A DNA stretch of 64,000 nucleotides. Source: Nymphaea colorata. Lineage: Eukaryota > Streptophyta > Magnoliopsida > Nymphaeales > Nymphaeaceae. The notes under the pieces were generated by a model. That model made no database searches, was not told the DNA's origin, and was given only the letters and a program-made list of their open reading frames with translations. Both the position numbers and the translations under genes were made by a program. Below are positions 3,550-41,500 of the stretch, in pieces (positions within the stretch are counted from its first letter, which is position 1; the number at the start of each line of letters is the position of its first letter). The stretch covers positions 7,095,205 to 7,159,204 of the forward strand of contig NC_045138.2 of the NCBI RefSeq assembly GCF_008831285.2, given 5' to 3'.

Positions 3550-3830
3550 ATAGAAGCTTGATTCATTAAAGCTTGGCTCCTGAATAAGTTCGAACTGAGT
3601 CATTTGCTTAATGAGTCGAATTCGAGTTCATCAGTCAACTCATTCAAACAATCGAGTTAAGTTCGAGCTCAACACATAACTGCTGAGTCGAGCTCGAGCT
3701 TTAATAGAGTTTGTTGAGCCTTAATCAAGTCGATATATTCAAATGAACTGCAACCGCTGAGTTATTCTCAAGTTCGAGCTGAGTCAAGCTCGAGGTTTAG
3801 GTGGTTGTGATTAAATTGAACTTAAAATGG
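3550..3830. repeat. 'GCTCGAG'-type dispersed repeat
   Basis: Repeated GAGTCGAGCTCGAGC-like words, the same style of sequence seen at 11,066, 33,626, 47,247 and 53,949. Two of those have hAT-like ends. Boundaries here are unclear. Confidence 0.5.
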
Positions 3831-4179
3831 CTACATATACATATAAATATAAATATAAATAAATAAATAAACAAATATATATATAGTTCATAGATATTTC
3901 TATGGACTGTCTATGACCAGTGTGGAGATGCAAATACCGACGTGAGTCACACGTGGATGAGTATTTTATTACTTCCTCTCAAAAGGCACAAAGTCACAGA
4001 TGTGCTAAGCAAGTAGCCCTTGTTGCTAGATGATTTCTTTTGGTTATCAGCAAACAAGCTTTTAAATACATGAAAAATTTTTAGGAGATTGACTTGTCAT
4101 GCTTCCAGAAACCTACCCCTTATTGGGAGGCTAACTGTTCAACCCCAAAAAGTCAATATCGTGGATCACATCTGTACTG

Positions 4180-4180
<1 letters not shown>

Positions 4181-4249
<69 letters not shown>
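4181..4249. repeat. (TA)n microsatellite
   Basis: Pure TA tract of about 69 bp. Confidence 0.97.
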
Positions 4250-4253
<4 letters not shown>

Positions 4254-4479
4254 GTTTAGTTAAAAAAATATTAAAAAGTTGTTGCAGTTGTTCTAATTAA
4301 ATTTAGTTGTTTTGATCTCACAACCCTAGTTGTTTTGATCACATCTAATTGCTAAAATGTATTGAACATTATAAATTAAGTAGTTGATCTGATGCATGTT
4401 GAATCTTAATGCATTATATCCCTTTTATTTGTTAACAAATTGCAAAGAAGGCAAAAATATGAGAGAGAGGTATTTTATC

Positions 4480-34306: not shown

Positions 34307-36957
34307 ATGGCCTCCCTCTACAACTCTTCTCTTTCTGCTAATCACTCCGCCTTAAGAAGTGTGAGCCTCCCTCCCTCCCTCCCCCTCCCTCCCCCCCCCT
34401 CTCTCTCTCTCTCTCACACACACACATACACACACACACACACACACGCACGCACGCACACGCACACACACTGGCTCTGTCTCTCGCTGCGAATTGGGTT
34501 TGTCGTATATCGTGATTTTCCTATTGCATTTTGGGTTCAGGGTTGGAACTACTCTGGACGAGTCAAAGCTTTCAGGCGGAGCTCCAAGCTGCCGCTCTTT
34601 GGGTGGCGGAATCTCGAGAGTCAGAAACTGAGTAGAGGACGTGACATCGCCATGGAAGCGGTGGTCGATGGTGCCACAGAGTGCCTGGATGATTCGTTGA
34701 GGCCTCGAATTGGTTAGTATAAAAGATATGAAATTTCCGCACGGTTGCTTATTTTTTGGTCTGGCTTTTATTGTTAATGCTTTTCTTTTTTTTAATTTTA
34801 TTCTTGTTACGTCCTGCCGTTGGGGGATGAGACGTTTATGGGCAGTCTGGTTTCGCGGTGATTTTAGGTTTGGAGGAGAAGGAGCCAAGTGTCTCGACGA
34901 TCCTGACGAACTTCTCGTGTTCGTTTGATCCATATGATGCGCTTAGCACTCCTTTGTACCAGACCGCTACTTTTAAGCAAGTAATTCCCACTGCAGAATT
35001 CTGTATTTTCTTTTTGTAGAATTACATTTTTCTGGACATCGACCTTAGATTTTCGACCGTGAATCATTGAAAATGCTGATTACTTGGTTATGGTGCTAAA
35101 CGATCAAAATGCCATTTTCCCTTGTTTGTCTATATTCTTGTTCTTGTATTTCTAATTCTTTGTTTATCAACATAGAAACTTGTTTCCTACTCTTCCCTTG
35201 TTTGACTTTAGTTCGCATCAACGTCATTGTTGGTAATTAAGTATACTTCTCGGTTAAGGGTCTGGCCTGGTGATATGATCCCTTTACTTTGTACCAAATA
35301 TGAGCAAAATTCAAATGCACTGCAGCAAAACGAGCTGAAACTAGGGTGTGAATGAAAAGTGGGCTCAAGTATCCTGTATTCTGGTTCTATTGTTTGTGAT
35401 TGCTGGTTGAAATCTTGGTGCTATGCCATGGAAATTGATCTCTATTTGGATAATGGTTCTTCCATGTTTTAAACTTGCTTCCATATAAATACAAACATGA
35501 TGCCAACTTTTAAAAGCAGGGGGGGGTGGGGGGGTTTGACCATGAGCTGTTGGGTAAAGATCTTTTCATTTTTGTTCAACTCAGCCATCTGCAGTAGAGA
35601 ATGGACCTTATGATTATACCAGAAGCGGTAACCCAACTCGAGACACACTGGAATCGTGAGTTTCATTAGCCACTGTTTTCTTGGTTGCAGATTTTTATCT
35701 TATTACTGTGACTAACGCTTTGTGACTATCAGGCTTTTGGCAAAGCTCGAGAAAGCTGATCGTGCATTTTGTTTCACAAGTGGGATGGCTGCTTTGGCTG
35801 CTGTCACACATCTTGTTGAAGCTGGTAGGCGCGCTCTGTTAGCATGGATTCCCTTTCATCCATGCCACATTTTTCTTACTGTTTATTTGCCTGCCAAATG
35901 TAGGTCAGGAGATTGTAACTGGATCTGATATGTATGGTGGCTCTGATAGGTTGCTTTCAAGAGTTATTCCTAAAAGAGGAATAATGGTTAGGTTAGTCTC
36001 ATCTCTTTTTCTGTATTTCTGATAATGTATGCACATGCTTAAGCTGTACTACTTTCTAACACTATATGACACAGACGGATTGACACAAAGGATCTGGATG
36101 AGGTTGCTTCTGCAATTGGCCCAAAGACTAAGATTGTATGGCTGGAAAGCCCAACAAATCCACGTCAACAAATTTCTGATATAAGGGCAAGTTTTTGTCT
36201 TCTTAATGGTTTAGTAGTAAATGATAATGCCGTCTTGCTGCTTGTAATTTTTCCACAGTAGTGACTTATGTTGTGCCTGTAAAAAGTCTTGAGATTCATG
36301 CCAGACTTATGTTTTCATACTTCAACAATAATCAGTTGGAAGAACGGTGAGGATTGACTGCTCGGATCTAAATGTACGATCACCTCTCTTTCAAGTGACA
36401 AAATTGTGGTCCTTCTATTTTACGAGTTGGTCTAAATTTTCTATTTCTTCTAGTTAACTGTAGGAATTTGGAGTTGCATATATATTCTTTTATAAGTTGT
36501 TTTATTTCATAGTTGTGCATTGATTTTTATTGCTCTACAAGGGAATGTGTTCGTTTGTAGGTTGTGGCATTTTGATCGGCATAGTAAGCTTCCTGAGAGC
36601 AGTGAGTAGCCTCACCTTAGCCCTAGATATAACGTTTGTAGGTTGCTTTTAATACGTAGAGTCATACAATCATATCAACACAACTCAGTCTGATGGCTTT
36701 CATGTTACCATAAGAGGTCGTTTGATAATTGTCTCATTAGATAGAACGGATAGGACGTCTTGTCCACCACACCACTGTCCTGTCTGTCTTGTCAATAGTG
36801 TCTTCTGTCCACTGTTTGATAATTTTAAGAACATAAAACTATGTCCTTTGTGTCTAGTGTTTGAATTGCATCAATTTGTTTTTTTTTTTGTTCCACCCAT
36901 TGTTTGTGCTTGAACCAATGCTAGTGAGCATGCACGCATGTGTTTGTGTATATATAT

Positions 36958-37027
<70 letters not shown>

Positions 37028-38271
37028 ATTAAAAAAAAATAACACAAATTCTATATTGATAACTTGTTGATTACATGACTAAAAGAATTAACTTGTTACA
37101 AACATTCATCAAACATACAACAAAATTCATGATCCATCAAGTAATTATCTTCACCTCCATGTCCATCTTTTTTCTCTTTCATGACTTTCCACCTGCAAAT
37201 AAAAAAAAATCATACTTAAAATGATAAATCATCAATGAAACATGTACTTTCACCAAACGTTTTCTGTGCAAACATTTCACCAAACATTTTCTGTGCAACA
37301 AATATTCATCCTTGAACAGTCGGTGCAAAATATAGAAAGGCCCCAAATCTATTTATTCTTATTGTAATTCATGTATAGTTGGTGCAAAGGTTAATGGTTT
37401 GAAGCAAAACCCCAAACTAGACAATGCAAAAGGAAAGAAAACAACTGGTGTTCGTTATAATGTTACCTGAAAAACTAGTCATAATTTGCTCCAAATTTAA
37501 CAAATACAGATGAAATCAAGAGCTTTAAGAGCTTCACATTCCCGACACCCCTCTCTTGCCACTGATTTCCCTCTTTACTGAACCGATAAAGCTTCGCCTT
37601 CCTGAAAAAGACAATCATATCAGCATAAAACCCTTATGCTTGAAGAGACCTCAAGCCCAAACAAACGATCAGAAGGCTCCCTTCACTTACATATTGAGAA
37701 GAACTTCTTCGCCCTCCTCAAGCTTGACAATTGGCTGCACGACTGCTGCGGTGTCCTTGCAATCTCTCATGGCCTCTGATGTCACCTCCTCTAGCCCATT
37801 CCTCTCTGGATCCTCAGTGTCATGGATAATCGGTCAATCATGTGAGGCAAAGAGTTGAGGGCAAGAGTGACAGAGTGAGTGCCTCAGGAGGGATGAGAAA
37901 GAAGAAGCTGCAAAGATTAGGGATTCCAACCATTCCTAGCTCAAAACAGTGAGAGGGGGAGAGAGCGCAGCGGAAGAAGTTGAGGGAGGGAGAGAGGAGA
38001 GTAAGAAGAGTCGAGGGAGATCGAGTTGTGTACTGTCCTCTCCGTTCCTTGCTTACCATCGGAACACTCCAGGACACAGGCGAAATTTATACCCCCTGTC
38101 CCAATGTCCATCTTGTCCGCCCTGTCTTGCGGTCAGCGTTTGATGGTATTTTGAAAAAAAAGGAACTGATCGTTCTGTTCCTGCAGTTCCAGGCCTATCA
38201 AACGACCTCTAAGTTTGACTGAAAGTGAGAAGGATGTGTGATAAGCCTTAGGCTTCTCTCTCTCTCTTTCT

Positions 38272-38321
<50 letters not shown>

Positions 38322-38529
38322 TTTGTCTGAAATTCATGCCATTCAATTCTCCGTAGGCTTAAGCTTAGAGAGGTCCTTACTTCTTTGTTATTGGAGGAAG
38401 GGTAGATGTTACTACGAAATGAACCAAAGGAAGAGCGGAATGAATGCTTCTCTAATGAGGGAGAGGGAGACCCTCAATCCGAGATGTAGAGAAGGGAATG
38501 ATTTGAGATTTTGCTAAGTTCACCACCAT

Positions 38530-38566
<37 letters not shown>

Positions 38567-41500
38567 ACTGGATGGTTAAAAATAAAAAAATTTTCATAAA
38601 AAAACAGTTGTCAAATGAGTATTAGTGACAGTTTATTATGCAACAATAGTTTATGGTGTTTTTAGCAACAATTCGTGCCGCTTTTAGTGACATTTTTAAT
38701 TTTTAGCCCTCCAGAAATACCTGTCACACCACAGGACAGAATTCTCCTATATATATATATTTATTTACATATTGATGTACTTATTATACTGGCTTTTATG
38801 GCTAATCATCATTAGCCATGACTTTGTAACTTTATAATTTTCTTTCTGCTCTGTGTGTGTGTGTATTAAGACTTATTATATGCATAATTATCATTGTTAA
38901 TTTGCGGAGCCTTGCATAACAAATGCACAAATGAATTATATCTCTAATGAGAGCGAATAAAACAGCATGGCAGTTTTTATGCATTAATTATTGGTTATAT
39001 AATTCTATTGACACTTCAACAGACTTTCTGTATTTTCTCGGTGAAACTAAAAAAACAAATTATTCTTTGTTCTAAACTTGCTGAAATGCTGATAGACGTG
39101 AAAATCATGAAATAACCAGTTCATTTTGAAACTTCTTTAGATACTAATTCTGTGGCTGACATGCTCTTATTTGCGAGAAAGCAATAAAAAAATAATTGCT
39201 CATCTTGGTACCGTTATGCACTCCCAAATGTGCTAATCTTTTTTCTGGTGGGCACTGTTTCTGCATGGTCATGTATACTTGCACCAATTGAATTTTAAAA
39301 TATGAAACTTGTTCACTTCTTATTTTTCAGAAAATATCGGAGCTGGCTCATGCTCATGGTGCTTTGGTGCTGGTGGATAATAGCATTATGTCACCAGTTC
39401 TTTCCCGGCCATTAGAACTTGGGGCAGGTCTAGTTAACAGCCTTCTGATTTGATAAACATTGATGCCACTCTACGAATCTTGCTGGCGCAGTCTCTGAGT
39501 TCTGCTGACATGTCATGCTTTTTTTCCTTCTCTGTTTCAGATATTGTCATGCACTCTGCTACAAAATTTATAGCTGGACATAGTGACTTAATGGCTGGAG
39601 TTCTTGCTGTAAAAGGTGAAAGGTTGGTTGATAGCAGAATTGGTTGAAGATCTTTGTTGCCATAATGGGGAAAACATTGTTTTACCTTGTTTTTTCTTTA
39701 AATTCATAACCACAAGGAAGAAGAGACTCAGCGCTTCTTTCCTCTAGGAAAAAAAATTCATGTTTTGATATCTACAACCATGCATTTGCTGTTTTTGGAC
39801 GGCAAAGATTGATGATAATTGATAGGTGCCCTTGATTAACAGATCATGAAATTTAGGTTTAACAAGCAGTAGTAGCAGCAATCATGGTAGCAGAAATAAG
39901 TTCACCCTATTTGGCTATTTCAGATACACAATGTCTTCTTAAATGCAGCAGTGTTCATAATCTTGTTTTATTATAAATGTATGTTATAGTTATGAGAACC
40001 AAGAAACTCAGCAATGAAACAATTGATTCTGTGCTCTGTTTTTCCATACCTATTAATTTATGGATCTATGCTGTCAGCTAAGCACTAAACCCATTTCAAC
40101 AAGTTACCTCCCATTATAATGATGAGCAGCTCTTTGGGTTTTCAATGCAACTTTTGGACTTCGTACATGTCACTATGTTTAGTAAATGGTATGGGATTCA
40201 TGTGTGTCTTTTCTCTTAGGATATGAGCTTACTACATTAGTTTAATGCTGAAGTTAGGTTAGATAGAGATGGGGACGAAGAATTAAGTGATTCTGGAGAA
40301 GGAAAAACAACTAGACCATATGATCCTTTCAGCCTGTGCTAGGCTGTCTGCCCAGTTGTCAAATGGCACTGGCCTACCTGTGCAGTGTGTCTCTTAATTT
40401 CTAGAACAGGTCTAGCATACCCCTGTCAATATGAATGAGTTAGATGCTGCCTTGATTTATTATTATTACTGAATAAGAAGTAATTATTCACAGGAGTCAA
40501 GGATGCATGAAAAATAACTTGAAAAATATGACTAAGTTTATCCATGCAATTATATCAAGCAATTGTTCTGAATACTAATAGAAAAAACTAAGTTATGTTG
40601 ATACAAATAATCATACATTGATATTTTTAGATATAGTTCAAAGAGCTAATACAAACTAATGAACTTACAATTTGTCTTCATTAACAGTATTTTGGCCTTT
40701 TTATCGTAGTAACCCATGCTTAAGTTAAGGTTCATTGGAGAATGTTTTTTGGCCTTTTTATCGTAGTAACCCATGCTTAAGTTAAGGTTCATTGGAGAAT
40801 GTTTTTTATATTAATGGTGCAAAAATAATTATCTTGTTAAAAATATGAAAAGGTTAGGTGTATTTTTTATTCACATTAGTTCCGTCTTTTTGAATTGTAC
40901 ATAATACCGCCCTGTGGAGTCAAGTTACGAAGGCGTCAATTGTCTAGTTGGGTTGCGGATGAACTATAGTCAAAATTTCAGAAAAACAAAAAATTTAATA
41001 TATTGCTATTTTTTCTGCATCAAATTTTCAATCAGTTTTATGTTGGTCTCACTAGTGTATCTAGTGTCAGAAGTCACAACCGACTTATATCTGCAAGAAT
41101 GAGCTATTAAACTCTGGCGATTTTCATCTGGCTTGAGGAAATAAAAATTGGCAGAGAATGCCCAAACCTTTTTAGTCATAGTAGACGTTTAGTCTTGGCT
41201 AGCAAAACAAAAGGTGCTTGTGTGTAGTTGTAGTTTCAAGTTGCTCAATGCCTGATTGAGTATATAAAATGAGAGGAAGTGGAGGATTTTGAATGTTTAC
41301 TTTCTGAAAGAGAGTTTGTTTGGTGCATGTTGCAGTAGAACATTGTTGTGCAGCTATATGTCGGACATTTCCCTAGACTGTGGTGCACTACTTGAGTTGT
41401 GTCTTCGACATCCATTTCCTTGGTTAAGATTTTCAATTTAGAACGAGGAAAATGAAACTATAGTGTTAATTAGGTTAGTTAGAAAAAAATTATGCACAAT

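Follow-up and report, generated by a model that had tools for sequence, protein, structure and literature searches.

Pack-MULEs keep the introns of the gene pieces that they capture, and MULEs have long terminal inverted repeats (TIRs) and target site duplications of about 9 bp. Tourist-like MITEs are non-autonomous PIF relatives with TAA/TTA duplications; MITEs usually stay below about 600 bp and lack host gene pieces. Pack-PIF families have been described in maize and rice, and the available part of that study presents a capture model of neighbouring insertions (Gisby and Catoni 2022, PMC8903248). A grapevine study of 2008, in the portion accessible, describes transduplication of exons and introns by PIF elements, the result sometimes being common to several copies (PMC2528002).

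Here we analyse an element of this kind in the window, the whole stretch of 64,000 nucleotides under study (G000:C1:7095205-7159204), which belongs to a host genome of 408 Mb. We favour, with a probability of about 0.93, the reading that it is a non-autonomous Pack-type PIF/Harbinger element: a stretch of RanBP1 was captured once and amplified, one copy came to lie in intron 7 of the gene for cystathionine beta-lyase (CBL), and the captured piece is decaying neutrally. The element, its ends and its host intron are as follows.

36714..38209, minus strand: PIF/Harbinger-type element of the Pack-PIF kind, non-autonomous, 1,496 bp, with the RanBP1 fragment on the minus strand (TIRs and target duplication, dispersed copies, left end common with transposase-bearing elements)
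36711..36713, unstranded: left target site duplication, TAA (flank inspection)
38210..38212, unstranded: right target site duplication, TAA (flank inspection)
36714..36727, plus strand: left TIR, GAGGTCGTTTGATA, 14 bp (inverted-repeat search)
38196..38209, minus strand: right TIR, TATCAAACGACCTC, the perfect inverse of the left TIR (inverted-repeat search)
36714..36863, plus strand: left 150 bp, 73-78% identical to elements that carry DDE_Tnp_4 (genome comparison)
36187..39330, plus strand: host intron, CBL intron 7, 3,144 bp, GC-AG boundaries (exon comparison)

The sequence-only reading had placed a 1,496-bp element with perfect 14-bp TIRs and TAA duplications at 36714..38209, and the element was located exactly there. 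In the window, its ends form the single perfect TIR pair of at least 12 bp with matching TAA/TTA flanks within 6 kb. Since a 12-bp TIR pair with such flanks arises in 5 of 60 windows simulated with a first-order Markov model, the pair alone is no proof, and dispersed copies are needed. The TIR sequence GAGGTCGTTTGATA did not occur in the papers searched. CBL exons flank the element on both sides, as judged by comparison with an Arabidopsis sequence. Six introns were counted before exon 7 of CBL, so the assignment of the insertion to intron 7 holds. We notice that the donor of this intron is GC (AGG followed by GCAAGT across the junction), with CAG at the acceptor.

Within the element, the RanBP1 homology is clear. 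Two minus-strand exons joined by an 89-nt GT-AG intron (37602-37690) are present as the sequence-only reading had claimed, and their joined peptide matches the Pfam profile Ran_BP1 (PF00638) with 50.2 bits and an E-value of 3.9e-13, the cut-off being 23.2 bits. The match covers profile positions 3-41 of 122, and the peptide also matches RanBP1/RanBP2 chains in the PDB. Searching the host genome with PF00638 gave 15 matches, including the element in the window and a further copy of it (C8b, see below). The search for a parental gene, which had been suggested along with the idea of capture, located a donor-type RanBP1 gene at C1:2055146-2055340, on the same contig as the window and 5.1 Mb from it. 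Exons, intron and 5'UTR all align there, and it is the sole gene that aligns at length. The alignment delimits the captured block and its parts.

37470..37931, minus strand: captured block from RanBP1, 462 of the original 604 bp remaining, with 5'UTR, exon 1, intron 1 and parts of exon 2 and intron 2 (donor alignment, G000:C1:2054788-2055391)
37821..37823, minus strand: position of the native RanBP1 ATG, put out of frame by a 1-nt deletion shortly downstream; the ORF here has 10 aa (donor alignment, translation)
37691..37823, minus strand: coding remnant of RanBP1 exon 1, with 1-nt and 24-nt deletions against the donor (donor alignment)
37602..37690, minus strand: RanBP1 intron 1, 89 nt, GT-AG, with a 10-nt deletion against the donor (donor alignment)
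37524..37601, minus strand: what is left of RanBP1 exon 2 after a 97-nt deletion took away its 3' part and splice donor (donor alignment)
37470..37523, minus strand: remnant of RanBP1 intron 2 (second donor alignment)

The block aligns in colinear order with positions 3788-4242 and 4338-4391 of the donor locus L024 (C1:2054788-2055391), at 75% identity over 455 columns with gaps and 85% over 54 bp. In the donor, the captured sequence is one unbroken genomic stretch of 604 bp. Two features had escaped the sequence-only reading: the native RanBP1 start is frameshifted, and the block (37470-37931) is longer than the two exons. Going by the alignments, the donor is either the RanBP1 gene that the host plant still carries or a close paralogue since lost; the latter is possible because the identity is only about 83%. 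Capture from a spliced mRNA is ruled out, since intron 1 is retained and the block extends into intron 2. An unspliced RNA may have served as the capture intermediate. We also notice that the block begins 23 bp past the start of the donor's TATA box (L024 3765 and 3788, respectively), near the likely transcription start.

The element search of the host genome yielded at least 61 matches, with 40 of 218 candidates scored. Many of these are simple-repeat or end-only matches, and the copy counts are lower bounds, with overlapping loci counted once (L016 with L001; L007 and L017 in L043; L008 in L025; L010 in L024). At least nine further full or partial copies carry RanBP1-derived sequence, and the flanking sequences are unrelated between the copy loci. 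Together with the window copy (W), at least seven copies have a long capture, the others being C10 (L002), C5 (L003), C2 (L004), C7 (L005), C8a (L006) and C8b (L043). Shorter RanBP1 remnants occur in at least three copies, C6 (L025), C9b (L028) and C7b (L027). In C9a (L026), the left part stands alone without the RanBP1 block. A pre-capture relative was not found among the copies recovered.

Both ends are kept in six copies found (W, C10, C2, C7, C8b and C9b), four of which have TAA on both sides (W, C7, C8b and C9b). The flanks of C2 are TTA and TAA, and C10 lacks the 5' duplication. At the other copies, the TIR ends are 0-1 base off those of the window element, except for the first base, which is missing from C10. 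The C2 copy adjoins a second PIF end (L004, about 1497-1501), one TAA lying between the two. This abutment demonstrates only that neighbouring PIF insertions do occur.

Comparing the copies with the donor revealed that the seven long copies have four deletions in common: 9 nt in the 5'UTR, 1 nt just past the ATG, 24 nt in exon 1, and the one of 97 nt. The last, which removes the end of exon 2 and its splice donor, is also present in C6. The 10-nt deletion in intron 1 is found in six of the seven long copies and in C9b and C7b; C8a has lost 13 nt there. Because the copies share the same deletions, the capture happened once and amplification followed. The deletions recur in the aligned copies covering them, and on this evidence they arose before the family spread.

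By Kimura two-parameter distance (K2P), the copies lie 0.18-0.21 from the donor and 0.03-0.20 from each other, with W, C10, C5 and C8b forming a close group. In the window copy, exon differences from the donor are spread over the three codon positions as 12/71, 11/70 and 16/70, and the intron differs at 14/89, about the exon rate. Transitions affect 29 of 80 CpG sites in this copy, compared with 20 of 170 other C/G sites, an excess in line with that of a methylated repeat. Other copies show it less strongly, for example 19/80 and 22/169 in C7. Read from the native ATG, the frame runs for 10-13 aa in each of the seven aligned copies. A spliced ORF of 68 aa from a later ATG is intact in two of the seven (W and C8b) and broken in four (C10, C5, C2 and C7); C8a lacks that ATG and has 46 aa from another. 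This pattern fits neutral decay, in which the RanBP1 piece would be a passenger with no selected protein. A protein function of the capture was rejected, as none of the seven aligned copies has the native start in frame and divergence is nearly even among codon positions.

Outside the captured block, the element holds two further features on its minus strand.

38085..38091, minus strand: TATAAAT motif upstream of the captured block, a putative promoter, present in 5 of the 6 aligned copies in which the region survives (copy alignment)
37096..37192, minus strand: possible last exon after a TTTATTTGCAG acceptor, with no Pfam match (ORF and splice inspection, copy alignment)

The possible last exon is at least partly kept in seven aligned copies, and divergence dips over it (p 0.067-0.090 in three 50-bp windows). 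We claim no selection here, because on visual inspection the sequence seems rich in AT and poor in CpG; its Pfam search was empty.

The superfamily was approached through the transposase. A genome search with DDE_Tnp_4 (PF13359) gave at least 150 matches, with 150 of 307 candidates scored. At 8 of 30 fetched DDE_Tnp_4 loci, we found the left 150 bp of the element at 73-78% identity, and the TIR at these eight lies after TAA/TTA with 1-2 mismatches from that of the window element. The left end is absent from the other 22 of the 30, within the flank of about 1.5 kb examined. Conversely, a transposase match lies about 1 kb inside 4 of 26 end-only places (25 left ends and one right end), in a comparison that used 13 hand-picked transposase rows. 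The element at C10:12497821 has two ORFs with DDE_Tnp_4 matches of 65.5 and 25.3 bits (cut-off 24.8). A second ORF upstream, common to several transposase loci, has no Pfam match; PIF elements carry ORF1 in that upstream place. The window element gave no match to the C10 transposase or to this second ORF (E 0.01).

In the C10:12497821 element, no right end turned up over about 6 kb, and the transposase-bearing relative on C13 likewise yielded none, so that neither of the two relatives followed supplies a complete autonomous partner. We notice that these C13 and C10 elements (L058 with L075, and L059 with L074) are about 97% alike for 3.6 kb and then diverge, with no recognisable right TIR. The features expected of PIF/Harbinger are a 3-bp TWA (TTA/TAA) target duplication, short TIRs on dispersed copies and a DDE_Tnp_4 transposase on same-ended elements, and we found all of them, the last for the left end only. 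The duplication, the TIRs and the left end common with transposase elements are thus the grounds for the PIF/Harbinger label, an identity that we regard as supported by sequence comparison and that agrees with the type assigned by the sequence-only reading.

Other RanBP1 sequences in the genome are of different kinds. Eight exon-2 fragments lie on G000:C7 between 2.2 and 25.5 Mb (L014, L015 and L018-L023). They fall into two groups: four have about 1.6 kb in common at 99% identity, and four are older (79-97% mutual identity) and align to donor introns. We rejected these fragments as part of the element family: they are a different set, although two of them align with about 95 bp of the element. 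A separate locus, L009 (G000:C189:17189-17548), on a contig of 27.8 kb, encodes a RanBP1 domain that lacks introns and has TAG in frame twice. It was rejected as the donor, having no meaningful DNA match to the plant gene, and may come from a contaminant in which TAG codes for an amino acid.

Could the TIRs have arisen by chance around an ordinary or processed RanBP1 pseudogene? The simulated windows show how such pairs appear, in 5 of 60 cases for 12-bp TIRs with TAA/TTA, but the introns are retained, and this reading, to which we give practically no credence, is refuted by the copies at unrelated loci that share the ends and the TAA flanks. Capture by a TIR element of another superfamily, such as hAT or CACTA, is very improbable. 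A GTTTG core is present in many plant TIRs, which would allow it; the duplication, however, has 3 bp (TAA) and not 5 or 8 bp, and the same left ends occur on DDE_Tnp_4 elements, so that this origin is disfavoured. About equally doubtful is the idea of a new chimeric protein gene, built from the captured exons and under selection. In the window copy, exons 1 and 2 are mutually in frame, and the 68-aa ORF with its ATG is present there and in C8b. Against this stand the short products of the native ATG in 7/7 aligned copies, the broken longer ORF in C10, C5, C2 and C7, the missing ATG in C8a, the almost equal differences among codon positions and the extent of the piece, which spans profile positions 3-41 of the 122 of the Ran-binding domain.

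The remaining alternative assigns the locus a regulatory role: sense RNA from the element's TATA motif would pair with antisense CBL pre-mRNA, and the double-stranded RNA would yield small RNAs of 21-22 nt with a dampening effect on the donor RanBP1. We consider it unlikely, albeit less so than the readings above. The RanBP1 piece is antisense to CBL, and therefore CBL intron RNA would be antisense to RanBP1. Exact 21-mers matching the first two exons of the donor number 3 in W, 13 in C7, 9 in C8a, 4 in C2 and 3 in C8b. These matches and the TATAAAT motif kept in 5/6 copies make a small-RNA effect on RanBP1 possible. By contrast, C10 and C5 have no donor 21-mer, and within the block exon and intron divergence are about equal. 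An extension with similarly low odds holds that the dispersed copies are an RNA source against the donor, in which host introns would contribute the antisense strand and C7 and C8a, having the most exact matches, would supply 21-22-nt RNAs tuning RanBP1. If the regulatory role were true, an intron of a methionine gene would take part in regulating nuclear transport, and the importance of the locus would grow if small RNAs tied the copies to RanBP1 expression.

We return to the favoured reading, the single capture by a Pack-type PIF element followed by neutral decay, and set out its course. An ancestral element took up one unbroken genomic stretch of RanBP1, as the retained introns and the donor gene show. 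The captured stretch gained several deletions before the family spread, as seen from those common to the aligned copies that span them. The element was then multiplied, and the shared ends suggest that this was most likely done by PIF transposase acting in trans from relatives with the same left end. One copy inserted into CBL intron 7 at a TAA, where the target duplication marks the event. The RanBP1 passenger appears to decay neutrally, its start out of frame, its 3' splice donor gone and its divergence nearly even over the codon positions. CBL presumably removes the element with the intron by splicing.

The window element resembles Pack-PIFs of maize and rice, which, in the available part of that report, are non-autonomous, have short TIRs and mostly TTA/TAA duplications, carry gene pieces and form amplified families, Zm-Pack-PIF cluster 18 being an example (PMC8903248). 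In the same part of the source, cluster 18 has an average length of 535 bp, a gene piece of 163 bp and 97% identity. The window element has 1.5 kb, 462 bp left of a 604-bp block, about 83% identity and a retained intron, in another plant and with another donor. Like it, the Pifvine-3 elements of grapevine are PIF elements with transduplicated genomic exons and introns (PMC2528002). As far as the accessible text of that study goes, their captured part lies beside canonical ORF1 and transposase regions, whereas the window element has no similarity to the transposase tested. Pack-MULEs, which are named in the available part of PMC8903248, likewise carry gene fragments between TIRs, and the window element is set apart from MULEs by its 3-bp TAA duplication and 14-bp TIRs.

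A literature search on RanBP1 captured by a transposon, judged by title and start of abstract, gave no related report. The earlier remark that capture is less often described for PIF-type elements is fair, yet such captures are in print in the portions of PMC2528002 and PMC8903248 available. The traits of Pack-TYPE elements are present here, namely a host gene fragment, aligned to the donor RanBP1, inside a non-autonomous TIR element, and a multi-copy cluster (at least seven long-capture copies and at least three shorter ones). As a case it is clean, with donor gene, captured block and a copy series of graded divergence within one genome, and it presents a PIF element taking an unbroken genomic stretch with introns that starts near the donor's likely transcription start. 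Gene-capturing PIF elements are already known from grapevine (2008) and from maize and rice (2022), and the present case is a real, ordinary further example.
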